Assembly: GCF_016772475.1 (NCBI RefSeq)
Contig: NZ_CP068595.1
Span: 3,100,001 to 3,164,000 of the forward strand
Origin: Paenibacillus sonchi
GTDB lineage: Bacteria > Bacillota > Bacilli > Paenibacillales > Paenibacillaceae
Direction: 5' to 3'
Length of the DNA: 64,000 nucleotides
In this document: piece by piece, positions 5,178-60,499 of the stretch
Layout: the number at the start of each line of letters is the position of its first letter
Numbering within the stretch: the stretch's first letter is position 1
The notes under the pieces: generated by a model
Seen by the model: only the letters and a program-made list of their open reading frames with translations
The model's database searches: none
Told to the model about the DNA's origin: nothing
Translations under genes and position numbers: made by a program

Positions 5178-5296
5178 GGGAAAGTTTGGAGCGGTAGAAG
5201 CGTTAGCGTTTGCCTTTGTCTTCTGATTTCAACCGCGAGTGCGGCCTGAAATAAAGAAATCAGAAGACAACAGCGATCGGAAGCCCAAACATTTCC
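5178..5296 (+). repeat. Dispersed structured element, copy A (5' of GT2 gene)
   Basis: One of three related ~120-bp elements in the window (others at 11201-11316 and 60380-60499), all plus strand and all just upstream of a gene. The ends pair with each other (GGGAAAGTTTGG with CCAAACATTTCCC, one bulge), and a perfect 15-bp stem is formed by 5216-5230 with 5256-5270. The conserved text includes GCCTTTGTC and GACAACAGCG plus CGGAAG. It fills most of the gap between the flippase and the GT2 gene. It could be a cis-acting RNA, a processing site or a miniature mobile repeat. Confidence 0.8.
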
Positions 5297-5339
5297 CGAA
5301 TTGACGACAAGCACTGGACTGAAAAAGGAGGATACCTTC

Positions 5340-6192
5340 ATGGATTCAATGAAAAGCGTGCTTGGCGGCCCGGGAAGTTACCCGATATCGGCCGTCATCA
5401 TTGCTCAGGATGACGAAGTTCGAATATCCAAAGCAATTCAGTCCTGCCGGTTGTTCGCCGATGAGGTGGTTGTAATCGACGGGGGAGCAAAGACGGGACG
5501 GTGCAACTTGCCGAAAGTTTGGACTGCCGGGTGTTCGTCAACCCCTGGCCGGGATATGCGAAGCAAAGGGAATTCGGAGTGGAACGCGCCGTCCATGATT
5601 GGGTCTTCCTGATTGATACCGACGAAGTGGTCAGTGAGGAGCTGGCGCAGGACATTCTGGACCGCAAGCCCGGTCTTACAGACAGGGCGGTAGCTTTTTC
5701 ACTGTACCGGATCGGTGATTTCCTGGGCAGATGGCTGGATAAAGGGGAATACCTGGTTCGCCTCTATAACCGCAAGGAATACGGCATCCGCAACAGTCTG
5801 GTGCACGAAATGCCTGAGGTATCGGAGGAAAAAACGGTCAAATTGAACGGGATACTCTGGCATCAGGGATTCCGCAGCATCAATGACCATGTCGCCCGCT
5901 TCAATAAATATACCGATCTGGAAGCGCAGACTGCCTATGCCAGCGGCAAGCCTTTTAAGATCAGCCATTTGCTGCTTCGCCCGCCGGCCCGTTTCTTACA
6001 GAAGTATTTCCTGCATGGCTTATTCAAGAAAGGCATCTCAGGTTTTGCGGTATCCGTTTTCTGGGTGATGTATGAATTCATGGTCGGCTTCAAGCATTAC
6101 GAACTGAACAGCTCCGGCAGGCTGGCCCGGCACAATGCAATGGGCCAGGCGGAAAAAGAGAAAAAGGGGAGAGAAGCTATGCCGTACAGTGA
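5340..6192 (+). CDS. Family 2 glycosyltransferase (WaaE/KdtX-like), frameshifted
   Basis: A GT2-type (GT-A fold) transferase. The N-terminus YPISAVIIAQDDEVRISKAIQ and the DGG donor-binding motif are in one frame from 5340; from about 5485 the protein continues one frame over (LAESLDCRVFVNPWPGYAKQ, then DWVFLIDTDEVVSEELA with the acidic DTDE metal site). Adding one G to the GGGGG run at 5481-5485 gives the expected DGGSKDGTVQLAES. The start has AAAAAGGAGGATACCTTC upstream. In the sequence as given, the frame then runs without a stop into the next glycosyltransferase. One extra base near the GGGG at 6166-6169 would end this gene at a TGA at 6190-6192, giving a 284-residue protein, the usual size. 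The end coordinate is therefore an inference. Confidence 0.75.
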
Positions 6193-7372
6193 CGGGTTGA
6201 ACATTATGACGACCGGCCTTAGCTGGCCCTCTTTACAGCCAGGCGGACTCAATACGTATTTCAAATCCGTGTGTGAGCAGCTCTCTTCGCGCAACAAAGT
6301 GCATGCGCTGATCTGCAGTCAGGAAACGCCATCCACACCCAAAGAGCTGATTATCCATAACGCCGGTGATCCGAAGCAGTCGATCTGGAAGCGTAAGGAT
6401 GCATTCCAGCGCAAGGCGGCAGACCTCATGGGGAATGGCAGCGGCCGGATCGATATTCTCTATTCCCACTTTGCGCCATACGGAATCGGCCCGGCGATTG
6501 AAGCCAAGAAACGCGGAATTCCGGTGGTGATGACCTTCCATGGCCCATGGAATGAAGAGATGAAGATCGAAGGCCAGGGCATCAAGCACCGGGTCAAAAC
6601 AACCATTGCCAAATCCATTGAACATAAAGCTTACAAGCTTGCGGATAAATTCATCGTGCTCAGCGAATATTTCCGCGACATGCTGCACAGCCTGCACGGG
6701 GTGCCGCTGCACAAGATCATAGTCATTCCGGGGGCGGCGAATGTGGAACGGTTCGTACCCGCTGCCAACCGGCTGGCGACCCGGCGGACGCTGAATCTTC
6801 CCGAGGGAGCCACTACGGTGCTGACTGTGCGGCGTCTGATGAACCGGATGGGGCTGCTGCAGCTGCTGGAAGCCTGGAAGCAGGTGTCCGAGCGGTTCCC
6901 GAATGCGATTCTGCTGATCGGGGGCAAAGGGCCGCTGCGCGGCGAGCTGGAAGGAAAAATCTCCGATTATGGACTCGCCAACAAAGTAAGGCTGCTGGGC
7001 TACATTCCCGATCATGAGCTGGCGTCCTACTATCAGGCAGCGGACATGTTCGTGGTCCCCTCCCAGGCGCTGGAGGGCTTCGGATTGATTACGGTTGAGG
7101 CGCTCTCCTCCGGACTTCCGGTGATGGCAACGCCAGTGGGCGGCAACAAGGAAATTCTGCAGGGCTTCCGGCCGGAGCTGCTGTTCAAAGGCTCAACCAG
7201 CGACGACATGGCGGAAGGCATGATCCACATGCTGGGCAACCGCAAGCTGCTGCCGGGCCGTGATGAATGCAGAAATCATGTGCTTGAGAAATACACCTGG
7301 CAGCATGTAGGCGACCAAGTGGAATCCGTATTCCTTGAAACTTTGGGAAAGGGTGTGGCGGCAGGATGCTAA
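6179..7372 (+). CDS. Family 4 glycosyltransferase (probably separate gene, read as fused to GT2)
   Basis: A 397-residue GT-B (GT4) transferase. Visible features are the N-terminal PGGLNTYFKSVCEQL acceptor-side segment, VMTFHGPWNEEM, and in the C-terminal donor domain TVRRLMNRMGLLQLLEAW, IGGKGPLRGELE, LGYIPDHELASYYQAADMFV and the nucleotide-binding EGFGLITVEALSSGLPV (the EX7E motif). The ATG at 6179 is preceded by AAAAAGGGGAGAGAAGCT, a good ribosome site with no role inside a fused protein. The preceding GT2 coding region is in frame with it as given, so a 676-residue GT2-GT4 fusion cannot be excluded. The stop overlaps the next start. It probably adds a sugar, perhaps mannose, to the EPS repeat unit. 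Confidence 0.8.
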   Translation: MPYSDGLNIMTTGLSWPSLQPGGLNTYFKSVCEQLSSRNKVHALICSQETPSTPKELIIHNAGDPKQSIWKRKDAFQRKAADLMGNGSGRIDILYSHFAPYGIGPAIEAKKRGIPVVMTFHGPWNEEMKIEGQGIKHRVKTTIAKSIEHKAYKLADKFIVLSEYFRDMLHSLHGVPLHKIIVIPGAANVERFVPAANRLATRRTLNLPEGATTVLTVRRLMNRMGLLQLLEAWKQVSERFPNAILLIGGKGPLRGELEGKISDYGLANKVRLLGYIPDHELASYYQAADMFVVPSQALEGFGLITVEALSSGLPVMATPVGGNKEILQGFRPELLFKGSTSDDMAEGMIHMLGNRKLLPGRDECRNHVLEKYTWQHVGDQVESVFLETLGKGVAAGC

Positions 7373-8508
7373 AAGTTGCTTATATCGATCACACCGCCAA
7401 ATGGAGCGGCGGAGAGGTAGCCTTGTTCAACATTCTTACCAACATCAGCAATCAGATCGAGCCGCTTGTGATCCTCGCTGAGGAAGGCGCATTGGCCGAA
7501 CGGCTCCGGGAGAAGGGCATCGATGTCCGTGTCATCCCGTTGGATGAGAGCATCCGCAACCGCGGACGGAATACCGTCAACCTGGGTGCTCCAGCCGCTG
7601 CGCTGGGACTGCTGGCTTACGGCCGCAAGCTGGCTCCTATTCTCAAGCAGGAGAAAGTGGATTGTGTGCATACCAATTCCCTGAAATCTGCATTCTATGG
7701 AGCCGTTGCCGCCAAAAAAGCAGGAGTGCCGCTCATCTGGCATATCCGGGATCATATCGGCGCCCCTTACCTTAAGCCGGTTGTCGCCAAGGCGATCCGG
7801 CTGCTGTCACGCCTGCTGCCGAATGGCGTCATTGCGAATTCACATTCCACGCTGAATGCGCTGGAGCTGCCCCGCACCAAGAAAACGCTGGTCGTATACT
7901 CCGCTTTTGCCAAAGCGATTGGTGAAGGAATCGGCAAACGGGAGCAGCAAAAAGACTTCAACGTCCTGCTGGTAGGCCGGCTGGCGCAGTGGAAAGGCCA
8001 GCATATTGTGCTGGAGGCTGCCAAGGCTTTTAAGAACGACAGCCGTGTGAAGTTCTGGCTGGCCGGGGATGCACTGTTCGGAGAAGAGGCGTACAAAAAC
8101 GAATTAATTCAGAAGATTCAGCAGGATGAGCTGACCAATGTCAGCCTGCTGGGTCATGTGGATGATATACAAGGCCTGATGAGCAAAGCTGATTTGCTGA
8201 TTCATACCTCGATAACGCCTGAACCGTTCGGCCAGGTGATTGTCGAAGGCATGGCGGCTGGACTGCCGGTGATTGCCTCCAATGAAGGCGGACCGGTAGA
8301 GATTGTGGTTCCCGGGGTAACGGGGCTGCTGATCCAGCCGGGAGACCCAGTTGTACTTGCAGACTCTATCACCTGGATGCTGAACCATCCTGAAGAGCGG
8401 AAACGGATGGCGGACAGTGGAATGAAACGGGTGAAAGAGCATTTTGTTATCGAAAATACGGTCAAGGATATCGTTGATTACTATAAAGGGCTGCTCGCGG
8501 CGACCTGA
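7366..8508 (+). CDS. Family 4 glycosyltransferase
   Basis: A 380-residue GT4 transferase. The N-terminal domain begins LKVAYIDHTAKWSGGEVALFN, with the GGEV loop typical of the family, and continues to VDCVHTNSLKSAFYGA and PLIWHIRDHIGAPY. The donor domain has LLVGRLAQWKGQHIVLEA, LGHVDDIQGLMSKADLLIH and EPFGQVIVEGMAAGLPVIA, which carries the two conserved glutamates. The ATG at 7366 overlaps the preceding stop by seven bases, so the genes are coupled. A gap of 100 bases without an obvious terminator follows. Substrate is unknown; GDP-mannose is plausible because manC lies in the same locus. Confidence 0.9.
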   Translation: MLKVAYIDHTAKWSGGEVALFNILTNISNQIEPLVILAEEGALAERLREKGIDVRVIPLDESIRNRGRNTVNLGAPAAALGLLAYGRKLAPILKQEKVDCVHTNSLKSAFYGAVAAKKAGVPLIWHIRDHIGAPYLKPVVAKAIRLLSRLLPNGVIANSHSTLNALELPRTKKTLVVYSAFAKAIGEGIGKREQQKDFNVLLVGRLAQWKGQHIVLEAAKAFKNDSRVKFWLAGDALFGEEAYKNELIQKIQQDELTNVSLLGHVDDIQGLMSKADLLIHTSITPEPFGQVIVEGMAAGLPVIASNEGGPVEIVVPGVTGLLIQPGDPVVLADSITWMLNHPEERKRMADSGMKRVKEHFVIENTVKDIVDYYKGLLAAT

Positions 8509-8608
8509 CCGCAGGTAAGTCAAGAGCTTCAAGCCCAGCCACGAACCAATATATCCATACGTTCACTACTTGATGTTGCTGCTCCATCAAACTTTGAGGA
8601 TGATTCAC

Positions 8609-9709
8609 ATGAAAATTGCGATAGCGCACGATTACTTAATCCAAATGGGCGGGGCGGAAAGAGTAGTGGAGGTATTCCACCACATGTATCCGGATGCTCC
8701 GATCTTCACGACGGTATTTAACGGAAGCCGGTTGACCGACAACCTCAAAGATGCGGATATCCGGGCCTCCTGGCTGCAAAAAATCCCGGGAGTGAAGACC
8801 AACTTTAAAGGGGTGCTGCCGCTTTATCCCATGGCCATCCGTGATTTGGACTTTCGCGGGTATGATATCGTCCTGAGTTCCAGCAGTGCTTTCATGAAAA
8901 GCATACAGGTGCCCGAGTCTACATTTCATCTGTGCTACTGTCATACTCCGATGCGGTTCGCCTGGGATTATGACACCTACATGGAGCGGCAATCGAATTC
9001 CGGATTGTTCAAAAGACTGCTTAAGGTCTACATGCAGCGGCTCAAGCACTGGGACCAGCGCACTTCCAAAAATGTTAACCAATTCGTTGCCAACTCGTCG
9101 GTGGTCAAGACCCGGATTCAGAATTACTATCACCGGGATGCCGATGTGATTTTTCCGCCGATCAACACCGCACGCTTCAGCAGTTCGTCTTCCATAGGCG
9201 ATTACTATCTGATCGTGTCCCGGCTGGTCTCTTACAAAAGGATTGATCTGGCGGTGGAAGCCTTCAACCGCAACGGGCTGAAGCTGTTTATCGTCGGCGA
9301 CGGCCCGGACCGCAAGCGCCTGGAGGGCATGGCCAAAGATAATGTATCGTTTCTGGGCCGGCTGGAGGATGCCGAGGTGACGGGGCTGATGTCGAAGTGC
9401 CGGGCGTTTATTTTTCCCGGTGAAGAGGATTTCGGCATCACCCCGCTTGAGGCCAATGCTGCAGGAAGACCGGTTATTGCCTATCAGGCCGGAGGGGCGC
9501 TGGATACCATCGTTCCTTATGTCAACGGCGTGTTCTTCCAGCGTCAGGAAGTTGATGATTTACTTAAGGCCATTTATGAAGTGGAGTCCTATGCGTGGGA
9601 CATTGGGCAGATCATGGACCATGCGCGTAAATTCGATGAACAGGCGTTTATGGTTCAGTTCAAGCAATATGTGGAACAGGCCTACGTCAATTTTCTAAAA
9701 GGAGGATGA
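8609..9709 (+). CDS. Family 4 glycosyltransferase, WbaZ-like (possible mannosyltransferase)
   Basis: A 366-residue GT4 transferase starting MKIAIAHDYLIQMGGAERVV. The block HLCYCHTPMRFAWDYDTY is characteristic of the WbaZ/mannosyltransferase-like subgroup, and the C-terminal domain has LIVSRLVSYKRIDLAVEAF, GDGPDRKRLE and FGITPLEANAAGRPVIAY. I chose 8609 because it has TTTGAGGATG ahead and matches the family N-terminus; the in-frame ATG at 8570 adds only an atypical leader. Four bases separate it from the UDP-glucose dehydrogenase gene, which has its own strong ribosome site. GDP-mannose use is an inference from subfamily and neighbours. Confidence 0.88.
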   Translation: MKIAIAHDYLIQMGGAERVVEVFHHMYPDAPIFTTVFNGSRLTDNLKDADIRASWLQKIPGVKTNFKGVLPLYPMAIRDLDFRGYDIVLSSSSAFMKSIQVPESTFHLCYCHTPMRFAWDYDTYMERQSNSGLFKRLLKVYMQRLKHWDQRTSKNVNQFVANSSVVKTRIQNYYHRDADVIFPPINTARFSSSSSIGDYYLIVSRLVSYKRIDLAVEAFNRNGLKLFIVGDGPDRKRLEGMAKDNVSFLGRLEDAEVTGLMSKCRAFIFPGEEDFGITPLEANAAGRPVIAYQAGGALDTIVPYVNGVFFQRQEVDDLLKAIYEVESYAWDIGQIMDHARKFDEQAFMVQFKQYVEQAYVNFLKGG

Positions 9710-9713
9710 TTGT

Positions 9714-11054
9714 ATGAAACTGGCAGTAATCGGTACCGGCTATGTCGGTCTTGTCTCTGGCGTATGTTTTACACTGAATGGAAATCATGTAATTTGCGTG
9801 GATAAGGATGAGGAAAAGATCAAAAAGCTCAGACAGATGGAATCCCCCATCTATGAGCCGGGTATTGAGGCACTCATTGAAATGAATTTGCGTGAGGGCA
9901 GGTTATCCTTCTCCTCGGATCTTCATGAATCGGTACGCCGGTCTGATATCGTCATTCTCGCGGTAGGGACGCCTTCTCTTCCGGGCGGTGAAGCAGACCT
10001 GAGATATATTGAAGGGGCGGCTACGGAAATCGCCCAGGCGATGGAAGGCTACAAAATCATTATGACCAAGTCAACCGTTCCTGTGGGCACAAATGAAAAA
10101 ATCCGCAAAATTATCGCCTCCCACACCACTCATCCCTTCGATATCGTCTCCGCTCCTGAATTCCTGCGTGAAGGCTCGGCGATCCAGGATACACTCCATC
10201 CGGACCGGATTGTTATCGGACTGGATAACCCGGAGCTTGAGCCTGCGATGCGCCAGCTTCACCAGGGCTTCACGGAAAATGTGTTCGTAACCGATATCCG
10301 CAGTGCGGAAATGATTAAATATGCATCGAATGCTTTTCTGGCGACGAAGATCTCCTTCATTAACGAGATTGCCAACATTTGTGAAAAAGTGGGAGCTGAT
10401 GTAACCGAGGTGGCAGAAGGTATGGGTATGGACCGGCGGATCGGCTCAACCTTCCTGCAGGCCGGTATCGGTTATGGCGGCTCCTGTTTCCCGAAAGACA
10501 CCAATGCGCTGATTCAAATTGCAGGCAATGTGGACTACGAGTTCAAGCTGCTGAAATCGGTGGTTGAGGTGAACAAAGACCAGCGCTTCATGATCATCTC
10601 GAAGCTGCATGAGTCCCTTGGCAACCTGCGCGGTGCAGTCATCGGCATCTGGGGATTGGCCTTTAAGCCGAACACCGACGATGTCCGCGAAGCCCCGGCC
10701 CGCGAAATTGTGGAGAGCCTGGTGGCCGAAGGCGCTACAGTGAAGCTGTATGATCCGATTGCTGCGGAGAACTTCAGACAGCAATACGATCATCCGCAGC
10801 TGCGCTGGTGCGGCCTGCCGGAAGAAGCGGCGGAAGGCAGCGATGCGGTCTGCCTGCTGACCGACTGGAGCGTGTTCAAGGACATCGATCTGCACAAGCT
10901 TGCGGAAGGGATGCGCCGCCAGGTGCTGATCGACGGACGCAACGTCTTCTCCAAAGAGCAGATCGAGGGAACCGGCTTTGAATACCATTCGGTCGGACGC
11001 CCGCAAATGGGGGGCCTCAGCGGCTACTCCCCCAGCGTAGCCGGCGCGGTCTAG
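9714..11054 (+). CDS. ugd: UDP-glucose 6-dehydrogenase
   Basis: A 446-residue enzyme that oxidises UDP-glucose twice with NAD+ to UDP-glucuronate. The N-terminal Rossmann motif VIGTGYVGLVSGVC begins at residue 4, STVPVGTNEKI and APEFLREGSAIQDTLHPDR follow, and the catalytic cysteine (residue 258) sits in GYGGSCFPKD. The C-terminal NAD/UDP-binding domain has WGLAFKPNTDDVREAPA. A textbook AAAAGGAGGATGATT ribosome site precedes the ATG. Its presence in the EPS locus implies a uronic acid, probably glucuronate, in the polymer. A 415-bp gap separates it from manC. Confidence 0.96.
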   Translation: MKLAVIGTGYVGLVSGVCFTLNGNHVICVDKDEEKIKKLRQMESPIYEPGIEALIEMNLREGRLSFSSDLHESVRRSDIVILAVGTPSLPGGEADLRYIEGAATEIAQAMEGYKIIMTKSTVPVGTNEKIRKIIASHTTHPFDIVSAPEFLREGSAIQDTLHPDRIVIGLDNPELEPAMRQLHQGFTENVFVTDIRSAEMIKYASNAFLATKISFINEIANICEKVGADVTEVAEGMGMDRRIGSTFLQAGIGYGGSCFPKDTNALIQIAGNVDYEFKLLKSVVEVNKDQRFMIISKLHESLGNLRGAVIGIWGLAFKPNTDDVREAPAREIVESLVAEGATVKLYDPIAAENFRQQYDHPQLRWCGLPEEAAEGSDAVCLLTDWSVFKDIDLHKLAEGMRRQVLIDGRNVFSKEQIEGTGFEYHSVGRPQMGGLSGYSPSVAGAV

Positions 11055-11469
11055 GCTGTATCTGCCGCCAAACAAGCGGCCATGCCGGATCTTTAGCAGG
11101 GGGCTTCGCCTGCGGGTGAAGCAGCTTGGGCGAACTAATTCCACTGGCTCGTTTTCCAGTGGAAATGCTGCCGGGGAAGCTGTTAAGGGAGGAACGGAGA
11201 GGAATTTTGGAACTGTAGGAGCGAATGCGTCCGCCTTTGTCTGCGGATTTCCACCTCGAACAGCGGTTTATATCAAGAAATCTGCAGACAACAGCGGCCG
11301 GAAGTCCAAACATTCCTTGGAGAGACTCCCGTAACAGCCGACCTGAAGTATTGTCACGCAACATAATGCGTCAGTGACATTCCTGCCTTTCATGCGTAAG
11401 CCACCCGGCAGCAGCTCACAATAACAATCCGATATTTACGCGACAACACATAAATAGGAGGGTTCACTT
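11055..11469. other. Intergenic region ugd-manC with hairpins and structured element
   Basis: No gene is visible. The region contains a 9-bp inverted repeat (TTCCACTGG at 11139-11147 with CCAGTGGAA at 11156-11164) without a T run, copy B of the dispersed structured element, and an imperfect dyad with TGTCAC and GTGACA arms around 11353-11380. The manC ribosome site AAATAGGAGGG lies at the end. I see no clear rho-independent terminator, so transcription may read through. Confidence 0.6.
11201..11316 (+). repeat. Dispersed structured element, copy B (5' of manC)
   Basis: Related to copies at 5178-5296 and 60380-60499. The outer arms GGAATTTTGGA and TCCAAACATTCC pair, and the long inner stem is 11237-11251 with 11277-11291 (one G-U pair). 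Relative to copy A, the seventh pair of the stem changes from T-A to G-C, and to C-G in copy C, which keeps pairing intact. Conserved blocks are CCGCCTTTGTC, GACAACAGCGGCCGGAAGTCC and AAACATTCC. It lies about 150 bases ahead of manC. Confidence 0.8.
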
Positions 11470-12843: not shown

Positions 12844-13025
12844 AAAAATGCGCCGAAGGCGCTGTCGAATCCGGCGAAACCTTCCCGGGTCATGTCGATT
12901 TCAGGTTTCAAGCTAGGGCTAAATAATCTATTTACCCAATTGTTACAATTCCAAAACAGGTATTAAGAACCATTTATTAAGGAAAGTTCATTAATGCTCT
13001 AAACTAAAAATTTAATAGAGACGAT

Positions 13026-13167
13026 ACTTACGGTAAGAGGGATAAATCCTTCCACTACGACAAAGGCAAACCTAATCGAAAGATAGGGACGCAAAGCTAT
13101 AGGGCCTCCGAAAGAGTGGCAGCCTGGCTACCGAAAGGAAGATGAATTTTGACAACTTACCGTAAGT
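13026..13167 (+). promoter_or_regulatory. Outer 12-bp complementarity enclosing riboswitch and start codon
   Basis: ACTTACGGTAAG at 13026-13037, just ahead of the aptamer, is perfectly complementary to CTTACCGTAAGT at 13156-13167, codons 3-7 of the GH26 gene. If paired in the mRNA it would close a large domain that contains the whole c-di-GMP aptamer, the Shine-Dalgarno and the TTG start. The pairing is seen directly; its function is inference, and each arm is itself near-palindromic, so chance or a different role is possible. Confidence 0.45.
13049..13141 (+). promoter_or_regulatory. Cyclic-di-GMP-I (GEMM-I) riboswitch
   Basis: The leader matches the GEMM-I aptamer in order: AAAGGCAAACC, a GAAA-tetraloop hairpin at 13071-13087 (CCTAATC-GAAA-GATAGG), GGGACGCAAAGC, a GGGCCT block and the TGGCAGCCTGGCTACCG 3' domain. 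The closing stem is CTTCC at 13049-13053 with GGAAG at 13137-13141. GGAAG is also the Shine-Dalgarno of the TTG start at 13149, seven bases away. Ligand binding stabilises the closing stem in this class, so c-di-GMP should hide the ribosome site: a translational off switch. The class identity is firm; the direction of control is inferred from the overlap. Confidence 0.9.
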
Positions 13168-15515
13168 CGCGTCTGGTGTCCATCATGTTAACTATTGCCC
13201 TGTTTCTGACTGCAGTGCCGTTTGGCCTGGGGAGCGCGCCATCGACGGCAGCTGCTGCCTCGAGTTCCTCAGCCCCGGTTAATCCCAATGCATCACCTGC
13301 TGCTGTCAAGCTGCTTGACGATCTAAACGCTATTTCAGGAAAAGGTATTATTACCGGCCAGCATGACTATCTGGAGAGCCCGGATGAATTCAGCAACAGG
13401 CTGAAGTGGACGAGCGGAAAGTACGCGGCCCTTCACGGCTACGAGCTTGGCTTAATCAGCGGCCAGTCGGAAAGCACTGGAGCAGCACAGCGCAGAAATG
13501 TGGTGAACAGTGCGATCAACTGGTACAAAAATGGCGGCATCGTCGCGATGACCTTCCATGAGCAGCTGCCCGGCACTTCGTACCAATGGGCGAATGTGCA
13601 GAGGACGCTTAGTCAAGCGGAATTCAACAAGTATGTAACACCGGGAACGGCTCAATACAAAAGCCTGATCGCCGATCTGGACAAAGTGGCCGTTTCGCTT
13701 AAGAGCTTGCGGGACGCTGGTGTTCCAGTCCTATGGAGACCCTACCATGAAATGAACGGCAACTGGTTCTGGTGGGGGAAGAAAAATAATTTTGCGGAAC
13801 TTTGGAATATTATGTATGACCGTTTCGTAAACGTTCATCAATTAAACAACCTGCTGTGGGTGTGGAACCCCAATGCTCCAAATGCCTCGTCCGATCCTTA
13901 TGAACTGACCTATCCGGGAGCAGACAAGGTAGACGTTCTCGCAGCAGATATATATAACAATGATTATATGAACAGATATCATGATAGCCTGCTGAGCCTC
14001 GCGGACGGCAAACCCATTGCCATTGGTGAAAATGGCGAAATGCCAAGCACCGCCAAGCTGCAGCTCTCCCAGAGACAATGGGTCTATATGATGAACTGGG
14101 GAAAGATGCTCTATGAAAACAACAGCACCACTACCATCAAAAACTTTATGAATGACAGTTACACCGTCACACTGGATCAATACAAAGCCGGGCTGGTGGA
14201 GTCACCTGCGGCTCCAGCTACTCCGACGGCTACGCCAACACCGGTGCCGACGGCTACACCGACACCAGTGCCGACGGCCACGCCGGCACCAACGGCCACG
14301 CCGACACCGGCACCAACGGCAAAGCCTATAGCCACACCGGTACTATCTCCGGATGATGGTATGGTGGTTCTTCCCGGTCTAAATGGTCTTCAGGGAGAAT
14401 ATTTCAAGAATATGACGCTATCGGGTACACCTGTACTCGTGCGTAACGACGCTGCGGTTAACTTCAACTGGCGCCTGAGCGCTCCGGTATCTTCACTGGG
14501 TGTGGATTATTTCTCGGTCCGCTGGACCGGGCTGATCAAACCGTCGTACAGCGAGACTTACACGATTTCCACGACTTCAGACGATGGTATCCGCGTCTGG
14601 ATTGACGGTACAGCTGTAATCGACAGTTGGACTAAGCAGAGCGGAACTGAACGTACCGGAAATATCACCTTGAAGGCAGGGCAGCTCTACGATATCAAAG
14701 TCGAGTATTACGAAAATGCAGGCGATGCCAACATTCGTCTGATGTGGCAGAGCACCAGCCAGACCAAAGCTACAGTTCCAACAAGCGCTTTGTACGTCAA
14801 GACCTCAGCCAGCACAAGTCAAGCATTGCTGGCAGCTGCACCAACACCGGTAGCAACCCCGGCACCAACACCGGTAGCAACCCCGGCACCAACGCCGGCA
14901 GCAACCCCGGCGCCAACCCCGGCAGCAACGCCGGTAGCAACCCCGGCAGTAACGCCGGTAGCGACTCCGGCGCCAACGCCGGTAGCGACTCCGGCAGCAA
15001 CGCCGGAACCTGCACTGGCACCGATGCCGGAACCGGCGTCGGCTCCAGCGCCAGCAGCGGCACCAGCAGCAGCGCCTGCTGATAACGGACTGCAGGGTGA
15101 ATATTTCAGCAACATGCAGCTGTCTGGTGCTCCGGCAGTTGTACGCACCGATGCTGTGCTCGATTTCAACTGGCGGCTGGGTTCGCCGGATGCTGCAATC
15201 GGCACCGATTTCTTCTCGGTACGGTGGAGCGGCAAGATCAAACCGCTGTATAGCGAAACCTATCAGATCTATACAACATCAGATGATGGTGTCCGCGTTT
15301 GGGTCAATGGCACTCTTGTGATTGACAGCTGGATGAAGCAGAGCGGAACCGAACGCACAGGAAGCATAAGCCTGCAAGCCGGGCAATTATATGATATCAA
15401 AGTGGAGTATTACGAGAACCAAGGGGATGCAAGAGCGCGGCTGATGTGGGAAAGTCCAAGCCAAGTCAAAGAGACGGTTCCTGCCAGCGCCCTTTTCCTT
15501 CCTTCCGCTTCCTAA
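13149..15515 (+). CDS. Secreted GH26 glycosidase (beta-mannanase family) with two PA14 modules
   Basis: A 788-residue secreted protein. It has a signal peptide (to about residue 36), a GH26 catalytic domain at about 45-345, a Pro/Thr/Ala linker at about 355-400, a PA14 module at about 413-550, a second linker at about 555-640 and a second PA14 at about 646-785. In the GH26 domain the acid/base is Glu201 (RPYHEMNGNWFWWG) and the nucleophile Glu294 (IGENGEMPS). Family members mostly cleave beta-mannans; PA14 modules bind carbohydrate. The start is a TTG: GGAAG lies seven bases upstream, and the ATG at 13142 reads a stop after seven codons. Position after manC, behind a c-di-GMP riboswitch, suggests it trims or releases the locus's own polymer. 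The exact substrate is not shown. Confidence 0.92.
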   Translation: MTTYRKSRLVSIMLTIALFLTAVPFGLGSAPSTAAAASSSSAPVNPNASPAAVKLLDDLNAISGKGIITGQHDYLESPDEFSNRLKWTSGKYAALHGYELGLISGQSESTGAAQRRNVVNSAINWYKNGGIVAMTFHEQLPGTSYQWANVQRTLSQAEFNKYVTPGTAQYKSLIADLDKVAVSLKSLRDAGVPVLWRPYHEMNGNWFWWGKKNNFAELWNIMYDRFVNVHQLNNLLWVWNPNAPNASSDPYELTYPGADKVDVLAADIYNNDYMNRYHDSLLSLADGKPIAIGENGEMPSTAKLQLSQRQWVYMMNWGKMLYENNSTTTIKNFMNDSYTVTLDQYKAGLVESPAAPATPTATPTPVPTATPTPVPTATPAPTATPTPAPTAKPIATPVLSPDDGMVVLPGLNGLQGEYFKNMTLSGTPVLVRNDAAVNFNWRLSAPVSSLGVDYFSVRWTGLIKPSYSETYTISTTSDDGIRVWIDGTAVIDSWTKQSGTERTGNITLKAGQLYDIKVEYYENAGDANIRLMWQSTSQTKATVPTSALYVKTSASTSQALLAAAPTPVATPAPTPVATPAPTPAATPAPTPAATPVATPAVTPVATPAPTPVATPAATPEPALAPMPEPASAPAPAAAPAAAPADNGLQGEYFSNMQLSGAPAVVRTDAVLDFNWRLGSPDAAIGTDFFSVRWSGKIKPLYSETYQIYTTSDDGVRVWVNGTLVIDSWMKQSGTERTGSISLQAGQLYDIKVEYYENQGDARARLMWESPSQVKETVPASALFLPSAS

Positions 15516-51330: not shown

Positions 51331-51371
51331 ATTGACCGAAATGGTAAAACAGTCACATTGCGGTGACTGCA
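51331..51371 (+). promoter_or_regulatory. Candidate TetR operator, copy 1 (autoregulatory)
   Basis: ATTGACC-N5-GGTAAAACAGTCA followed by CGGTG-ACTGCA is repeated almost unchanged at 52038-52076, upstream of the exporter gene. A second dyad, CAGTCAC-N6-GTGACTG, is at 51350-51369. The location 29 bases before the TetR start suggests autoregulation. Confidence 0.65.
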
Positions 51372-51399
51372 CAAATTCAGAAAGAGAGGAAGTGCGCAG

Positions 51400-51975: not shown

Positions 51976-52037
51976 CTTCATCACTTGTGAAACGGGCAGC
52001 TTCAACCGACTCCGGTAGGAGTTTTTATTTGCTCTCA

Positions 52038-52076
52038 ATTGACCAATTGGGTAAAACAGTCATTCGGTGTTACTGC
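52038..52076 (+). promoter_or_regulatory. Candidate TetR operator, copy 2 (before YhgE gene)
   Basis: ATTGACC-AATTG-GGTAAAACAGTCA-TT-CGGTGTTACTGCA aligns with the block before the tetR gene with only small differences. It lies about 80 bases ahead of the exporter start. Confidence 0.65.
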
Positions 52077-52155
52077 AAGTTTTCAAAAGAACCGCATCCT
52101 TAAAACAGTTTATAGCATTTTAAAGAGAGCATATGATCAGAAGGAGAGAACCAGA

Positions 52156-54510
52156 ATGAAATCTTTATCCGTATTTGCCAAGGACCTGGGCGCAGCGCTC
52201 AAGAAACCCAAGGTGCTGATTCCTATGTTTGTCGTCCTGTTCATTCCGGTGCTATACAGCGGATTGTTCCTGAAGGCATTCTGGGACCCGTACGGCAAAA
52301 TGAATGAGCTGCCTGTCGCAGTAGTCAATGAAGATAAAGGTGCCGACTATGAAGGCACGAAGCTTGCAGCAGGGAATGACCTGGTGACAGAGCTGAAGAA
52401 GACCGACGGGTTCAAATGGAACTTTGTAACCCGGGCGCAGGCTGAGTCCGGTTTGAAGGATAACACCTACTATATGGCTATTGTGGTTCCGGAAGATTTC
52501 TCCGAGAGTGCCACCACCCTGCTGGAAGCAGATCCGAAGCCAGCCAAAATTATTTATGAGCCAAATGAAGGCTACAACTTCCTGGCCGGTCAAATCGGCG
52601 GTACGGCTGTAAAAGATATCAAGACTAAAGTATCCGCCAAAATTACCGAAGCTTATACCACTTCTGTTTTTGACAAAATCAAAGATATCGGAAGCGGCCT
52701 TGGCGAAGCGGGAGACGGTGCCACCAAGATTGCGGACGGTGCCTCCAAGCTGGATGACGGTGCGCTCAAGCTGAAAGATAATCTGGTTGTGCTGACCGAA
52801 GGTACCGGCAAGCTGCTGGATGGTGCAGCCCCGCTGACAAAGGGTGTAGCGGATCTGAACACCGGTGCTGCTGCATTACATACAGGCAGCAGCACGCTTG
52901 CGGGCGGACTTCAGCAGCTGTCCGCAGCGCATAAGCAGCTCCAGGACGGCGTATCCCAGACGGCAGCAGGCAGCAAACAGCTGAACGCCGGATTACAGAA
53001 GACGGCAGCCGGAGCAGCCGCGCTGCAAGCAGGCACGAAGTCTGCGGTGGATGGAACGGCTAAGCTTCAAGCCGGTACCCAGTCTGTTGTCGACGGCAGT
53101 GCGAAGCTTGCCGCAGGACTTACCTCTTCCGTGGACGGCAGCGCGAAGCTGGCTGCCGGACTTCAGGCTTCGAAGGATGGCAGCGCGAAGACCAGCGCAG
53201 GCGCTAAAGCGGTAGCGGATGGCCTGCAGCAGCTGGCCAAATCAAATCCGCAGCTGGCGGCAAGCCCGGATGTGCAGAAGCTGCTGGCGGCAAGCGCCGC
53301 GGTTGCCCAAGGTACCGCACAGCTGGATCAGAGCCAGCAGCAGCTCCTTGAGGGCGCAACTGCGCTGCACAGCGGCCAGGAGCAGCTGGTGCAAGGGGCA
53401 AACCAACTGCACGCCGGTTCGCAGCAGCTGGATGCCGGTGTGACCCAGCTGCATGACGGAGCGCAGCAACTGAATGCCGGCAGCACACAGCTGCTGGATG
53501 GACAAAAGCAGCTCCTGGCCGGAGCCGGAGCGCTGGAAACCGGCGGCAGCAAGCTGGCCGCAGGCATGAAGCAGTTCGGCGCGAAGCTGAACGAAGCTGC
53601 AGCAGGCGGCGCCAAGCTGGCTGCCGGCAGCAAAACGCTTGAAGCCGGAACAACGAAGCTGCTGGCCGGAGCCGGACAGCTGAGCAGCGGCCTCAGCTCT
53701 GTAGCAGACGGCTCGAAGAAGCTCAGCGATGGAGCCGGACAGCTTAAGGATGGACTGGATGACCTGAAGAGCGGCTCCGGCGAGCTGGCAACGAAGCTCG
53801 GCGATGCCGCTGCGCAGACCAGCTCAGTGAACTCAAGCGATGCGCTTGTATCCATGTTCGCCCAGCCGGTACAGATTGAAGAGCAAAAAGTGAGTGCGGT
53901 GCCGAACTACGGCACAGGCTTTGCCCCGTACTTCCTGTCTCTAGGTTTGTTCGTTGGCGCATTGATCTGCACTCTGGTCATTCCGATGCGCGACTCTGAG
54001 GTTATCGGCGCCAGCCGGTTCAACCGCTTCATCAGCCGCACGCTTACCTTCTCGATGATGAGTGTGCTCCAGTCCTTGATGGCTGCCATTATTGTTCTGT
54101 ATGGACTGGGCCTGAATGTACAGAATGTTCCGCTGTTCTTTGCCTTTACCTTCATTACAAGCATCGCCTTTATGTGGATGATCCAGGCCATTGTTACCTG
54201 GATGGATCAGCCTGGACGGTTCGTTGTTATTGTTATACTGATCTTCCAGTTGACCACAAGCGCAGGAACCTTCCCGCTTGAGCTGATTCCGTCCTGGATG
54301 AAATTCTTCAACCCGCTGCTGCCTATGACCTACAGTGTCAAAGGCTTCAAGGCTGTAATTTCCACCGGCGATTTCAGCGCAATGTGGAGCGACGCCGGCC
54401 TGCTGGCCATTTACGGAGTCGTATTCCTGGCCTTTACCTTCACCTACTTCATAACCCGTGACCGGGATAGTGAAGTCGCCGTGAAGAATGAACAAGTATT
54501 GACTGTATAA
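52156..54510 (+). CDS. YhgE/Pip family membrane protein (ABC-2-like)
   Basis: A 784-residue membrane protein. The N-terminal YhgE/Pip region includes one helix (VLIPMFVVLFIPVLYSGLFL) and LPVAVVNEDKGADYEGTKLA. A central region of about 360 residues consists of short imperfect repeats with Gly, Leu, Ala and Asp at fixed spacing (LxxGxxxLxxG), a long extracytoplasmic rod. The C-terminal ABC-2-like domain has about five helices. The ATG at 52156 has GAAGGAGAGAACCAG; an upstream TTG frame would overlap the operator. Relatives act in export, phage infection or WXG100-type secretion. Confidence 0.9.
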   Translation: MKSLSVFAKDLGAALKKPKVLIPMFVVLFIPVLYSGLFLKAFWDPYGKMNELPVAVVNEDKGADYEGTKLAAGNDLVTELKKTDGFKWNFVTRAQAESGLKDNTYYMAIVVPEDFSESATTLLEADPKPAKIIYEPNEGYNFLAGQIGGTAVKDIKTKVSAKITEAYTTSVFDKIKDIGSGLGEAGDGATKIADGASKLDDGALKLKDNLVVLTEGTGKLLDGAAPLTKGVADLNTGAAALHTGSSTLAGGLQQLSAAHKQLQDGVSQTAAGSKQLNAGLQKTAAGAAALQAGTKSAVDGTAKLQAGTQSVVDGSAKLAAGLTSSVDGSAKLAAGLQASKDGSAKTSAGAKAVADGLQQLAKSNPQLAASPDVQKLLAASAAVAQGTAQLDQSQQQLLEGATALHSGQEQLVQGANQLHAGSQQLDAGVTQLHDGAQQLNAGSTQLLDGQKQLLAGAGALETGGSKLAAGMKQFGAKLNEAAAGGAKLAAGSKTLEAGTTKLLAGAGQLSSGLSSVADGSKKLSDGAGQLKDGLDDLKSGSGELATKLGDAAAQTSSVNSSDALVSMFAQPVQIEEQKVSAVPNYGTGFAPYFLSLGLFVGALICTLVIPMRDSEVIGASRFNRFISRTLTFSMMSVLQSLMAAIIVLYGLGLNVQNVPLFFAFTFITSIAFMWMIQAIVTWMDQPGRFVVIVILIFQLTTSAGTFPLELIPSWMKFFNPLLPMTYSVKGFKAVISTGDFSAMWSDAGLLAIYGVVFLAFTFTYFITRDRDSEVAVKNEQVLTV

Positions 54511-54528
54511 CAGCAAGCTGTTTACAGG

Positions 54529-54568
54529 AAAAACAAACTACAGAAAAACAAACTACAGAAAAACAAAC
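54529..54568. repeat. 15-bp tandem repeat, 2.7 copies
   Basis: AAAAACAAACTACAG repeats twice and then partly, directly before the terminator of the YhgE gene. Confidence 0.85.
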
Positions 54569-54602
54569 AAGAGCGCTCCATTCCGGGGCGCTCTTTTGTT
54601 CA
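54568..54602 (+). terminator. Terminator after the YhgE gene
   Basis: The stem AAGAGCGC-TCC / GGGGCGCTCTT is followed by TTGTT; A-rich text lies upstream. Confidence 0.85.
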
Positions 54603-54663
54603 AAGAATTTATATGTTTTGGGGAAACTGCCTTCCCCCTTTAACTGTAATACAGTGTGAAAAA

Positions 54664-54932
54664 ATGTGGATATCTTGGAAGCCTCACAGGAATATACGCG
54701 ATGCAGGAGGATAGGGCTCCATCCGCGGACTGATGCGGACAGAGGAGCCCTTATTTTGCTAAAAATCTTACTTTATCTACAGTTACGGACTCAGGAGCCG
54801 TTATATCGTTCGATCGAGCCTGGAATCAAGGGGAGAGGGACAAATAAAGGCATCTGAGTCCGTAGTCCTGCGGAATAGCCGAATCTTCTATCCATAACGG
54901 CTCTCCTGTCCGTAACGGCTGCGGATCAATCG
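54664..54932. repeat. Dispersed repeat family X, copy 2
   Basis: See copy 1 at 39706-39975. The shared core includes GCAGGAGGATAGGGCTCC, GCGGACAGAGG, ACGGACTCAGGAG, GAGCCTGGAAT and GGCTCTCCTGTCCG. Confidence 0.85.
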
Positions 54933-54977
54933 CAAAGGAATAGGGCGATCCATCTTTACCGGCTTCTTCGCAGGTAC

Positions 54978-55163
54978 TAGTTGGAAAAAGGGAACTTATT
55001 TTTACGGAAATTAAGAAATCCTGAGAGTGAAGTGGAAAAAGTACACCTAATCGGGCCACATTTCTGGTCCAATGGTGAAATGAGCTGAATTAGTGTCCCT
55101 TTTTCCACTTCATCTGCCCGAGGGATGGGTACTCCGGCAAATTAGTGTCCCTTTTTCCACTTA
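54978..55163. repeat. Dispersed repeat family Y, copy 2
   Basis: GGAAAAAGGGAACTTATTT, then two internal copies of AATTAGTGTCCCTTTTTCC followed by ACTT, at about 55087 and 55139. A related block is at 46131-46236. Confidence 0.75.
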
Positions 55164-55593
55164 AAGAGTTGCCGTAGGATTCATGTACTAGGGAATCAGC
55201 ACCCAGACTCTACTAATAGAAGTGTTTTTCTTAAAATATAATTTATATACTGCGGGAAAATAAATTATCCTTATGTTTCTGTATATTCAAGGATCAAAAC
55301 AGGCTAAAAAGTGCCATGAATGTGTCAGGAAAATGAATGCAGCGTTTTCATCGAATAAGTTCTTATTCGTTGTTGATGCATATTTATGCATAACTAAGAT
55401 TTTTTACGCTTCTATTCACTAAAGCTGTAACGCAAAAGCATTTGTTAATCAAGCTCATAAAAAAGTTTAAATTGCGCTCATGTCAGGTCGATGATAAAAT
55501 GATATAACCAATCTGTCTTGAATATTTATTAAGAATTCCCACTGAAAATTTTTCCTGAAATCCGTCTACTTTATAATAGAAAGGTTGCGTACA

Positions 55594-58500
55594 ATGAGAC
55601 ACACTGAACTGCCCGCCAAACAGGGCCTGTACGATCCCCAATTCGAAAAGGATGCCTGCGGAATGGGGTTTGTCGCCCATATCAAAGGCAAGCCGTCCCA
55701 CGATATTGTAAGTAACGCTTTGACTATGCTCTTCAACATGGAGCATCGGGGAGGCCAGGGAGCAGAACCAAACTCAGGTGACGGAGCCGGTATTATGCTG
55801 CAAATTCCGCACCGTTTCTTTGCCGGAGAAGCCAGCAAGCTTGGCTTTGAACTGCCTGAGCCGGGGCATTATGGCGTGGGAATGATCTTTTTGTCTCACA
55901 ACGAGGAGATCCGGGCCCGCCATGAAGCGCTCCTCAGCGGGATTATTGCTGAGGAAGGACAGCAGGTGCTCGGCTACCGCGATGTACCTACCTTTGACGA
56001 GATGCTGGGCAAGACGGCCAAGGCGGCCAAGCCTTATGTGCGCCAGGTATTTATCGGACGCTCCGAAGGCATTAAGGACGATCTGGCGTTTGAACGGAAG
56101 CTGTATGTCATCCGCAAACGCGCCGAGCTCTCCATCCGCTACGGCGGGGCAGAAGAGAGTGAATCCTTCTATGTGCCTAGCATGTCCTGTCGAAAGATCG
56201 TATACAAAGGCATGCTGACTACTGCACAGGTAGGACAGTTCTATCTGGATCTGCAGGATGAGAAGCTGGAATCGGCGATTGCCCTCGTTCACTCCCGGTT
56301 CAGCACCAACACGTTCCCGAGCTGGGAACGCGCGCATCCTTACCGTTTCATGATTCACAACGGCGAAATTAATACTCTGCGCGGCAACGTGAACTGGATG
56401 CATGCGCGCCAGTCGCTGTTCAAGAGTGAAGTGTTCGGGGAAGACCTGGGCAAGATCAAGCCGGTAGTGAATCCTGACGGCTCCGATACGGCCATGTTCG
56501 ACAACACATTCGAGTTCCTGTACCTCAGCGGACGCTCCCTGCCGCATGTGGCCATGATGATGGTTCCTGAGCCTTGGAGCAACCATGACAGCATGGACGA
56601 GAAGAAGAAGGCATTCTATGAATACCACAGCACGCTGATGGAGCCGTGGGATGGACCGGCCGCAATGGGCTTCACTGATGGCGTTCAGATCGGTGCGATC
56701 CTTGACCGCAACGGCCTGCGCCCGGCGCGTTATTATGTAACCAAAGATGATCTGATTATTCTATCCTCGGAAGCAGGCGTGCTTGATATCCCTGCTGAGG
56801 ACGTACTATACAAAGACCGTTTGAGACCAGGACGCATGCTGCTGGTGGACACGAAGGAAGGCCGGATCATTTCCGACGAAGAGGTCAAAGCCGCTATCGC
56901 TTCCGAGCAGCCATACCGCCAGTGGCTGGATGAGCACCTGATCGGCCTCGACGAGCTTCCTGATGCGCCGGAGCTGCCGAATCCGAAGCATGACAATGTG
57001 CAGCAGCTGCAGCAGTCCTTCGGATATACCTTTGAGGATCTGCGCAAGGTTCTGGAGCCTATGGCTTCCACCGGTGCTGAGGCTGTCGGCTCGATGGGCT
57101 ATGATGCCCCATTGGCCGTACTGTCGGACCGGCCACAGCGTCTTTATAACTATTTTAAACAAATGTTCGCCCAGGTAACCAATCCGCCGATCGATGCGAT
57201 TCGTGAAGAGCTGGTTACTTCCACAGCTACAACCATCGGACCTGAGCGCAACCTGCTCAAGCCGGAACCGGAAAGCTGCCGGCAGATTTCATTGGATTCA
57301 CCAATCCTCTCCAATGAGGACTTTGCGAAAATCCGCCATGTCCGCCGTGCAGGGTTCAAGTCGATGTCGATTCCGATTCTGTTCCCGGCTGAGCTTGGAG
57401 CGGAAGGGCTGCGCATCGCTCTGGAGCGGATGAATGAAGCTGCTGACCGCGTAATGGCCAAAGGACATAACATTCTGATTCTGTCCGACCGCGGCGTAGA
57501 CCGTGAGAATGCTGCTATTCCCGCACTGCTGGCCGTTTCCAGCCTGCATCACCACCTGATCCGCTCGGGAACGCGCACCAAGGTCAGCATCCTGCTGGAG
57601 TCCGGTGAACCGCGTGAAGTACATCATTATGCGCTGCTGCTTGGCTATGGGGTAAGTGCGGTTAACCCGTATCTCGCTTTTGAGAGTCTCGACGACATGA
57701 TTGGCCAAGGCTTGCTGCGCGGAATCTCGCATGAGAAGGCTGTGAAGAATTATATTAAAGCTGCGACAAAAAGCGTAGTAAAAATACTGTCCAAAATGGG
57801 CATCTCGACGATTCAATCCTACCGCGGCGCACAGATTTTTGAAGCTGTAGGCCTGAATGCGGAATTCGTGGACCGTTACTTTACCTGGACGCCTTCCCGC
57901 ATTGGCGGCATCGGCCTGGAAGAAGTGGCAGCGGAGTCGCTTGCGCATCATTACCGGGCCTTCACAGACAAGGACGGCAATGACAAGGTGCTCGATTCCG
58001 GCGGTGAATACCAGTGGCGCAGCGACGGGGAAGAGCATCTGTTCAACCCGCAGACCATTCATCTGCTGCAGCATTCCGTGCGAAGCGGCGATTACGGGCT
58101 GTACAAGAAGTATGCTGCACTGGTGCAAGGCGAAAGCGAGAAGCATCAGACCCTGCGTTCCATGCTCCAGTTCAAGCCTGTGAATGCACCGGTTCCGCTG
58201 GATGAGGTTGAATCTGCAGAATCGATCATGAAACGGTTCAAGACCGGCGCTATGTCCTTCGGCTCGATCAGCAAGGAAGCGCATGAGACGCTGGCGATTG
58301 CTATGAACCGCATCGGGGGCAAGAGCAATACCGGTGAAGGCGGAGAAGATCCGGCCCGCTTTACTCCGGACAGCAACGGCGATTCCCGCCGCAGTGCAAT
58401 CAAGCAGGTTGCATCGGGACGGTTCGGGGTGACCTCGAATTATCTGGTGAACGCCGACGAGATTCAAATCAAGATGGCGCAGGGCGCGAAGCCGGGTGAA

Positions 58501-60188
58501 GGCGGACAGCTTCCAGGCCGCAAGGTATATCCTTGGGTAGCCGAAGTGCGCGGCTCCACAGCGGGTGTAGGTCTGATCTCCCGCCGCCGCATCACGATAT
58601 CTATTCCATTGAGGATCTGGCTGAGCTGATCTACGATCTGAAGAATGCCAATCCCCGTGCGAACATTAATGTTAAGCTCGTGTCTGAGGTCGGTGTCGGA
58701 ACGATTGCCGCCGGGGTAGCCAAAGGCCGTGCCGATATTATCCTGATCAGCGGCTACGATGGCGGTACCGGCGCATCGCCGATGAACTCCATCCGCCATG
58801 CCGGTCTGCCTTGGGAGCTGGGTCTGGCCGAAACCCATCAGACATTGATGCTGAACAATCTGCGCGACCGTGTCGTACTCGAAACAGACGGCAAGATGCT
58901 CAGCGGACGCGACCTCGCTGTCGCTGTGCTGCTGGGTGCTGAAGAATACGGTTTTGCCACTGCTCCGCTTGTAGCTGTAGGCTGCATCATGATGCGGGTA
59001 TGTCAAATGGATACCTGTCCGGTTGGCGTAGCCACACAGAATCCGGAGCTTCGCAAGAACTTCACCGGTGATCCGCAGCATGTCGTGAACTTCATGACCT
59101 TTGTGGCACAGGATCTCCGCGAGATTATGGCGGAGCTTGGTTTTCGCACCATCGAAGAAATGGTTGGCCGCACCGATTGCCTGGATGCAGTGAAGGCCTC
59201 CAGTCATTGGAAGAAGAAAGGCGTCGACCTGAGCAGCCTGCTGCACACCCCGGCTATGCCGGAAGGAAGCACGCGCTTCAACAGTAAGCGCCAGAATCAC
59301 GGCCTAGAGGAAACACTGGATGTGTCGAAGCTGCTGGACCTGGCCGTACCGGCTCTGGAATCCGGCACCGGGGTTGAAGCTTCCCTGCCGATCACGAACG
59401 TCAACCGTGCGGTTGGTACGATCCTGGGCAGCGAGCTGACACGCAAATACGGTGCTGCTGGCCTCCCGGATGATACAATCCGTCTGTACTTCACCGGTTC
59501 GGCGGGACAGAGTCTGGGCGCATTTGTGCCGAAGGGAATCACCATCACCGTTGAAGGCGACTCCAATGACTATGTCGGCAAAGGGCTTTCCGGCGGGAAG
59601 CTGATCATTAAGCCATCCGCCCAGGCGACCTTTGCTGCTGAGGACAATATCATCATCGGGAACACGGCGCTGTACGGGGCTACCAGTGGTGAGGCATATA
59701 TCAGCGGCATTGCCGGAGAACGCTTCGCCGTCCGCAACTCCGGAGCAAACGTGGTTGTTGAAGGTGTAGGCGACCATGGCTGTGAATACATGACCGGCGG
59801 CCGTGTGGTTGTGCTTGGCGCGACCGGACGCAACTTTGCGGCAGGCATGTCGGGCGGCATCGCCTACGTATACGATCTGGACAATACGTTCATCAAGCGC
59901 TGCAACCTGGAAATGGTACTTCTGGAGCGCGTAGAGGAGCCAGAGGAAATTGCTGAGCTTCAGGGTCTGATTACGCGTCATACCGCGCTTACCGGCAGCA
60001 ATGCCGGACAACGCATCCTCGATGCATGGGATGAGGCCCTGCCGAAATTTGTCCGTGTTATTCCGAAGGATTACAAACGGATGATGGAGCAGATCCGCAA
60101 GGTGGAACAGACCGGCTTGACCGGCGAAGCCGCCCTGATGGCTGCGTTCGAAGCGAATATGCGCGAGCTTGCCCGTGTTGGCGGCTAA
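55594..60188 (+). CDS. gltB: Glutamate synthase large subunit, frameshifted
   Basis: About 1531 residues when repaired. After a short propeptide, Cys22 ([11 protein letters not shown]) is the amidotransferase nucleophile. The GATase type 2 domain spans about 22-430, the central domain about 470-760, the FMN-binding synthase domain about 800-1180 with the 3Fe-4S cysteines in [15 protein letters not shown], and the GXGXG beta-helix domain ends the protein. It makes glutamate from glutamine and 2-oxoglutarate. The frame breaks at 58580-58582: one C added to the CCC run restores [20 protein letters not shown]. The ATG at 55594 has AAAGG nine bases upstream. No small subunit (gltD) follows; a terminator does. 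Confidence 0.95.
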
Positions 60189-60228
60189 CCGCCCCGTAAT
60201 GCAAACAGCTATCTTGGCTGGCTGATCT

Positions 60229-60275
60229 AAAGGGACAACATTCCCTCCTTAACCGGAGGGAGGTTGTCCCTTTTA
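60229..60275 (+). terminator. Terminator after gltB
   Basis: The stem AAAGGGACAACATTCCCTCC / GGAGGGAGGTTGTCCCTTT (one mismatch) around TTAACC is followed by T-rich sequence. Confidence 0.92.
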
Positions 60276-60379
60276 CTATTGCTGCACTTTTTTCCGGTTT
60301 TCAGGAAAAAGGGAAGTTGTGGTAGAATAAAACCCATATAAAATGGATTGATGAACAACAATGAGGTGTAAGTAATGGA

Positions 60380-60499
60380 GGGGAAGTTTGGAACTGGAGG
60401 AGCGATAGCGACCGCCTTTGTCTCCGGATGTTATCCGCTAACAGCGATATAATCAAAAACATCTGGAGACAACAGCGGCCGGAAGTCCAAACATTCACC
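60380..60499 (+). repeat. Dispersed structured element, copy C (5' of ABC transporter genes)
   Basis: Outer arms GGGGAAGTTTGGAACT and AGTCCAAACATTCACC pair with few mismatches. The inner stem is 60418-60432 with 60458-60472, 15 bp with one G-U. A small GAGCGATAGCGACC hairpin region lies between, as in the other copies. Its stem differs from copy A at four pairs, all of which remain paired. Confidence 0.82.

Follow-up and report, generated by a model that had tools for sequence, protein, structure and literature searches.

A 64,000-nucleotide stretch of the Paenibacillus sonchi genome (hereafter the window; C1:3100001-3164000 of 7.78 Mb) holds three copies, A, B and C, of a small structured element which belongs to a mobile family resembling miniature inverted-repeat transposable elements (MITEs) and which, within the sampled class, is almost wholly confined to the order Paenibacillales. 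Three parts make up the core of the element: P1, which is a long outer helix; a three-way junction that includes a two-pair mini-hairpin; and a variable inner stem of 15 bp. The letters of the junction are conserved between bacterial families, and the stems change in matched pairs. The family is probably a non-autonomous transposon with a conserved RNA junction that is normally transcribed and selected to fold as sense RNA, old copies having been kept in host leaders, a reading held here with moderate confidence. Small repeats with structure tend to be regarded as lineage-specific debris; in this family one RNA junction persists order-wide, joined to what seem to be different transposon ends, in sense orientation, in fixed housekeeping leaders and with site-specific paired substitutions, and this persistence makes it testable whether the RNA functions of such repeats explain their success.

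The first-pass annotation of the window described three repeats, all on the plus strand, each with a 15-bp inner stem and lying 44 to 154 bases before a gene start. Matches of R2, a covariance model built from 58 diverse copies, together with an alignment, place all three repeats where they had been put; the stem is present in each, and the distances to the gene starts come to about 44, 154 and 73 bases. The substitutions read in the stem were also correct: pair 7 is T-A, G-C and C-G in copies A, B and C, pair 9 is T-A, G-U and G-U, and pairs 13 and 15 change together in copy C. Folding energies lie below those of shuffled sequences (z = -5.07, -4.30 and -5.50 for the three copies), and the 3' arm (up to three mismatches) has three matches in the window against a mean of 0.00 in 100 shuffles. 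Copy C is flanked by promoter-like TGTGGTAGAAT, recognized by eye, on one side and by a ribosome site on the other. The copies and their parts are:

5171..5303, plus strand: copy A, intercistronic, about 44 bases upstream of the GT2 start; R2 match of 131.5 bits
5216..5230, plus strand: copy A, 5' arm of the inner stem
5256..5270, plus strand: copy A, 3' arm of the inner stem
11192..11324, plus strand: copy B, in the manC leader, about 154 bases upstream of the start; R2 match of 144.3 bits
11237..11251, plus strand: copy B, 5' arm of the inner stem
11277..11291, plus strand: copy B, 3' arm of the inner stem
60373..60505, plus strand: copy C, in the leader of an ABC ATPase gene, about 73 bases upstream of the start; R2 match of 150.4 bits
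60386..60395, plus strand: copy C, 5' arm of the outer helix P1, GTTTGGAACT
60396..60417, plus strand: copy C, junction strand with the two-pair mini-hairpin, the part conserved between bacterial families
60418..60432, plus strand: copy C, 5' arm of the inner stem
60458..60472, plus strand: copy C, 3' arm of the inner stem
60484..60492, plus strand: copy C, 3' arm of the outer helix P1, AGTCCAAAC

The fold was analyzed in an alignment of 193 copies of the standard form with 41 pairs, comprising the outer helix P1, two short junction helices, the two-pair mini-hairpin, the inner stem and a small tip hairpin; covariation was scored with an in-house R-scape-like implementation using a phylogeny-aware null. 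Under a tree-based null that redistributes substitutions, three column pairs are significant among all pairs (E<0.05), all of them in the inner stem. A second null, which keeps the changes per column, leaves two significant pairs, both in the stem; when it is applied to structural pairs only, 10 of the 41 are significant, and 14 structural pairs rank in the top 41 where 0.13 are expected. Single sites were tested in the same way: at the GT2 site (19 standard-form copies of 24 intact), 10 of 41 pairs are significant when structural pairs alone are considered, and 13 structural pairs rank within the top 41; the manC site has one significant pair of all pairs, which is structural, 3 of 41 in the structure-only test and 6 structural pairs in the top 41; and the ABC site, under the second null, has likewise one (structural), with 7 of 41 and 6 in the top 41. 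At the GT2 site 97.9% of cells are paired against 91.7% after shuffling and 36-51% when one arm is slid, and 14 of the 41 pairs changed on both sides against a shuffled mean of 8.4. The order-wide alignment A4 has 96.7% of cells paired (74.7% shuffled, 32-49% slid), with substitutions on both sides in 34 of its 37 pairs; as A4 was fitted to the model, these figures lean towards structure. Covariation extends to the two-pair junction helices (in A4, helices 5 and 6, the latter weakly). A wider alignment free of significant covariation had been named beforehand as grounds for abandoning the fold, and significant covariation is found in the 193 copies, in A4 and at the GT2 site. A sarcin-ricin-like internal loop was dropped from the description, as many copies have G where the motif needs U.

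Over the cells of the 193-copy alignment (a hand sum covering 40 of the 41 pairs) there are 386 G-U and 40 A-C combinations, G-U being in excess in 27 pairs and A-C in 4, with 10 ties; this excess points to folding of the sense strand. At the GT2 site, 61 cells have changed on both sides and 3 on one side (hand sum), and the near-absence of one-sided intermediates fits either strong selection or correction of one arm by the other. The first-pass claim of selection on a folded molecule is upheld insofar as the covariation is significant, and qualified insofar as part of that covariation, the paired GT2 changes included, may stem from arm correction at the DNA level.

Orientation with respect to transcription is strongly biased. 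In tandem gene settings, where both neighbours run the same way, 98 copies lie sense and 9 antisense among 154 copies (p = 5e-20), the other 47 being in convergent, divergent or unassigned settings; the random orientation that would have spoken against a folded RNA is not what is seen. When copies are classed by their terminal inverted repeats (class I, both ends; half, one end; class II, none, as in the window copies), the sense to antisense ratios are 26:5, 21:0 and 51:4, respectively. The gene calls behind these counts come from a codon-scored heuristic, a cruder earlier caller having given 28:4 and 45:4, and the rows of two close relatives (G028 and G031) include the orthologs of A, B and C; one locus of Paenibacillus sp. 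HW567 (L102) gives five tandem copies, and class II stands at 47:4 after four of these are removed. Of 30 distant loci, 15 are non-tandem or unassigned, and the rest give 13:2. Among the non-tandem copies of the P. sonchi genome, the leading strand has 9 and the lagging strand 6, with the leading strand inferred from gene majority and G-C skew (2.0-2.5 Mb is ambiguous), so that within small numbers orientation follows transcription and not replication; an orientation set by the replication strand is therefore unsupported.

The family is abundant and is spread through the order. The 23-base arm pattern has 68 matches in the P. sonchi genome, 34 per strand, against 0 for a reversed control pattern, and R2 gives 75 matches (from 150 scored of 3059 candidates), of which 2 are antisense duplicates, leaving about 73 copies. 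With up to two mismatches the arm pattern occurs in 25 of 60 genomes, that of P. sonchi included, all of the same genus; among the 80 matches listed in a scan of named genomes, 5 belong to Bacillus sp. FJAT-27264 and the others to Paenibacillus. R2 matches 153 of 198 genomes of Paenibacillales, in 27 of 43 genera and across five listed families (f1, f2, f4, f6 and f10), with E-values reaching about 1e-24 outside the family of P. sonchi, and a further model, R3, was run on 398 genomes drawn from the class and matched 39, 38 of them in the order and one outside it (G428, E 8e-7). The order and class counts are lower bounds, 17 and 8 candidates having been scored per genome, and spread beyond the order is judged within one class. 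Applied more widely, R3 would probably annotate very many leader segments in Paenibacillales that are at present unmarked. A phage or plasmid origin was considered and dropped, as copy C matches 0 phage records and 1 plasmid record, the arm pattern being present in two viral contigs (L188 and L189).

In families f2, f4, f6 and f10 most copies keep CUGGAG(A/G)AGCG..AGCGUUCGCCUUUG and CAACAGCG(A/G)(U/C)CGGA or near variants, with the mini-hairpin shortened in f2 copies and in one f4 copy, and their outer arms and inner stems have diverged in sequence with complementarity kept. Their flanks show other inverted ends, read by eye, of the types GGCTCAA and GAGCGTGTTCAAAAA: GGCTCAA in G168, G142 and G041, and AGAGCGTGTTCAAAAA in G052, which suggests that the core may have been captured by different transposons. 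Parts of the element are also exchanged between near relatives: the ABC-site genes of P. sonchi (G000), G028 and G031 are 97-99% identical, yet the inner stem of G031 is wholly different, and the outer arms of G000 are unlike those of G028 and G031, still complementary; inner-stem types switch between near relatives at manC as well. An extra hairpin module is present in 34 of 169 extracted cores, which measure 145-154 bp against the usual 110-114. The loop of this optional module, CCGTAGG, could pair with a CTTACGG variant near the junction (L022, L040 and L063), a possible pseudoknot whose partners do not always co-occur.

That the family is mobile, as the first-pass annotation had proposed in calling it a miniature mobile element, is seen from its inverted ends, from empty orthologous sites, and from an IS630-type (insertion sequence) partner in relatives. 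Young copies in this genus are MITE-like, with about 185-260 bp between inverted ends TATAGATTGAACTT, and many copies of the P. sonchi genome extend out to inverted ends CTATATAGATTGAACTT ... AAGTTCAATCTATATAG; the end motif (up to three mismatches) has 144 genome matches against 44 for a reversed control. Both terminal inverted repeats are found in 26 of the 55 P. sonchi copies that were classed, and one end in 7; the window copies are without them, copy C showing a degenerate pair by eye. Internally deleted derivatives of about 55-105 bp lack the core and have both ends. Within a syntenic block of 400 kb, P. sonchi and both close relatives all carry A, B and C, so that these three are not the mobile form but old fixed copies, whereas 8 of 13 copies in the G028 block have no counterpart at the same place in G000 or G031, their flanks being 82-99% identical; of the remainder, three are A, B and C, one truncated copy is flagged in both relatives, and one is flagged in G031 only. 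The P. sonchi block itself has eight copies: both relatives share four of them (A, B, C and a fourth), and the other four were not found there, the comparison being incomplete for three of these four.

Twelve empty sites were examined for target duplication. One clean site (the G028 copy at 9045) shows a TA duplication in a CTAG target, with CCAAC-TA-[element]-TA-GCAC against the empty CCAACTAGCAC; one other fits with a mismatch, one gives TG, and the others are inexact or unclear. Among 21 DDE_3 loci in ten genomes, an IS630-type transposon with similar ends on both sides is present in three copies in G028 and in one apparently decayed copy in G009; the transposon at L361 has two overlapping frames, a winged helix-turn-helix part and a DDE_3 part. 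Nested copies, one inside another, occur at the ABC ATPase leader in G032 and G083 (L217 and L239). The five tandem copies of L102 (4489-5419) have a unit of about 199 bp and sit between a sensor-kinase-like gene and a response-regulator gene, as read from the sequence. A second dispersed repeat ending TTTTTCCAACTA often abuts the element's inverted ends (L038, L043, L194, L199, L209 and others), and at L198, L199 and L203 a third type of repeat, marked by TGCACTTTATGCAA-like motifs, comes after single inverted ends.

Old copies lie at orthologous sites in other genomes. In 30 orthologs per site, the best-matching loci returned of a larger set, the element is intact in 24, truncated in 2 and empty in 4 at the GT2 site; present in 28 and lacking in 2 at the manC site; and present in 21, truncated in 4, empty in 4 and of uncertain state in 1 at the ABC site. 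Class II or half copies of the P. sonchi genome precede pyrR, argG, manC, pheT, prfB, parC, leuS, purM and others, the names having been read from translations. Several of these genes recur downstream of copies in other species, with spacings of 123, 123 and 113 bases for pheT, 67 and 74 for argG, 65 and 65 for a peptidase U32 gene, 218 and 215 for prfB, and 57 and 55 for parC, but 147 in one parC case.

In the preferred reading, an IS630-type transposase would move the elements in trans at TA targets, and the inserted element would normally be transcribed within host leaders and operon spacers. Selection would then favour a sense-RNA fold with which insertion spares the host transcript, perhaps because the fold protects it against termination or decay or provides a defined site for processing. 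Copies A, B and C would be old members that have lost their mobile ends and persist as structured leader segments, and such old copies may still exchange inner stems with other copies. Several results weigh against this reading. None of the three DDE_3 loci of the P. sonchi genome carries the element ends, so that the IS630 partner may have been lost in this genome. Young copies already show a strong sense bias (26:5), and class I does not differ significantly from the rest (p = 0.12), which makes an insertion bias possible. Host genes can do without the element, as the empty GT2 and ABC orthologs (4 of 30 each) and the 2 of 30 at manC demonstrate. Among 30 distant genomes, a single one has the element at the same place by the peptidase U32 gene (copies too divergent for R3 being missed), and this sole copy, with GGCTCAA ends, is probably an independent insertion; the result is evidence against very deep vertical retention at this site, and deep vertical conservation is not supported. 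The GT2 site taken alone has no pair that passes the all-pairs covariation test under either null, shows no wobble polarity (G-U 4 and A-C 5 cells), and in one of five measures goes the wrong way, with 20 further pair types observed against 25.5 after shuffling.

One alternative is a purely selfish DNA hairpin with no RNA function, in which template switching or correction of one arm by the other during replication, along with exchange between copies, would maintain the pairing. Such a hairpin would account for the predominance of both-sided changes at GT2, for the inner stems swapped wholesale among near relatives at the ABC site and at manC, and for the lack of the element in some close relatives; it is nevertheless rather unlikely, as the covarying two-pair junction helices are too short for arm correction, the conserved internal-loop letters have not been healed into pairs, and neither the 98:9 sense bias nor the family-wide G-U excess is expected of a strand-neutral DNA process. 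The core could instead belong to the transposition machinery, as folded single-stranded DNA or RNA read by the transposase, since core and ends travel together in young copies and one folded DNA strand would also give strand polarity. This is highly improbable: in other families the core is found, by eye, between inverted ends of another kind, the core-less derivatives keep both ends, and the orientation of non-tandem copies does not follow replication (9:6).

A classical cis-regulatory RNA of host genes, one that binds a ligand or protein and also became mobile, would suit the conserved junction, the read names of the genes behind old copies (pyrR, argG, pheT, prfB, parC, leuS, purM and manC), and the recurrence of pheT, parC, argG, prfB and the U32 gene in other species at mostly near-equal spacing. 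The downstream genes, however, have no pathway in common, no terminator or ribosome-site switch was seen beside the copies by eye (no scan was made), no Rfam family matches, and tens to more than a hundred copies per genome together with empty orthologous sites are unlike a riboswitch, all of which makes this origin quite improbable. It is conceivable, although we lean against it, that the junction is a portable RNA device carried by several unrelated miniature transposons, protecting or promoting the host transcript, and that hosts kept copies as leader elements of housekeeping operons; such a device might act, for example, in processive antitermination or decay control, and would be a class of mobile cis-acting RNA not yet described.

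By their descriptions, the nearest kinds are RUP, BOX, the bcr repeats and Correia, all compared through publications. RUP of Streptococcus pneumoniae, with IS630-Spn1, is similar in being about 100 bp long, in having around a hundred intergenic copies and IS630-like ends, and in its TA target; it is described as showing no other signatures of structure or function (PMC2229807), and the order-wide conserved junction core, fixed orthologous copies and sense bias set the Paenibacillales element apart from RUP as described there. BOX of S. pneumoniae shares a modular interior with an optional central module, a structured transcript and a proposed insertion sequence-driven movement (PMC3049150); unlike BOX, the Paenibacillales element has as modules one optional hairpin insert and exchangeable inner stems. 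The bcr1-bcr18 repeats of the Bacillus cereus group are also repeats of Bacilli, some of them MITE-like, in untranslated regions and operon spacers, and some have conserved RNA structure (PMC3446304); bcr1 is called B. cereus group-specific in a title cited there, whereas the present element is from another order. Correia/NEMIS of Neisseria resembles it as a MITE with a folding transcript and proposed RNase III cutting (PMC2229807), but has a different host, and the cutting is proposed for Correia/NEMIS only. Nowhere in the literature searched did an order-wide junction, sense bias and fixed leaders turn up together, and among the papers listed in searches with Paenibacillus none describes this repeat by title and abstract start, most subscription journals being outside the coverage. 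No Rfam family reaches its gathering score on the elements (the best sub-threshold match of copy C has 17.8 bits against a cut-off of 57), in agreement with the initial description of a candidate undescribed structured RNA; an EAR-type RNA had been considered, and Rfam gave no match to it.

Elsewhere in the window, the sole Rfam match is a c-di-GMP-I-GGC riboswitch at 13056-13136 (61.9 bits). It lies just upstream of a long, secreted-protein-like open reading frame (13149-15515), which resembles a GH26-type mannanase from a reading of its translation.

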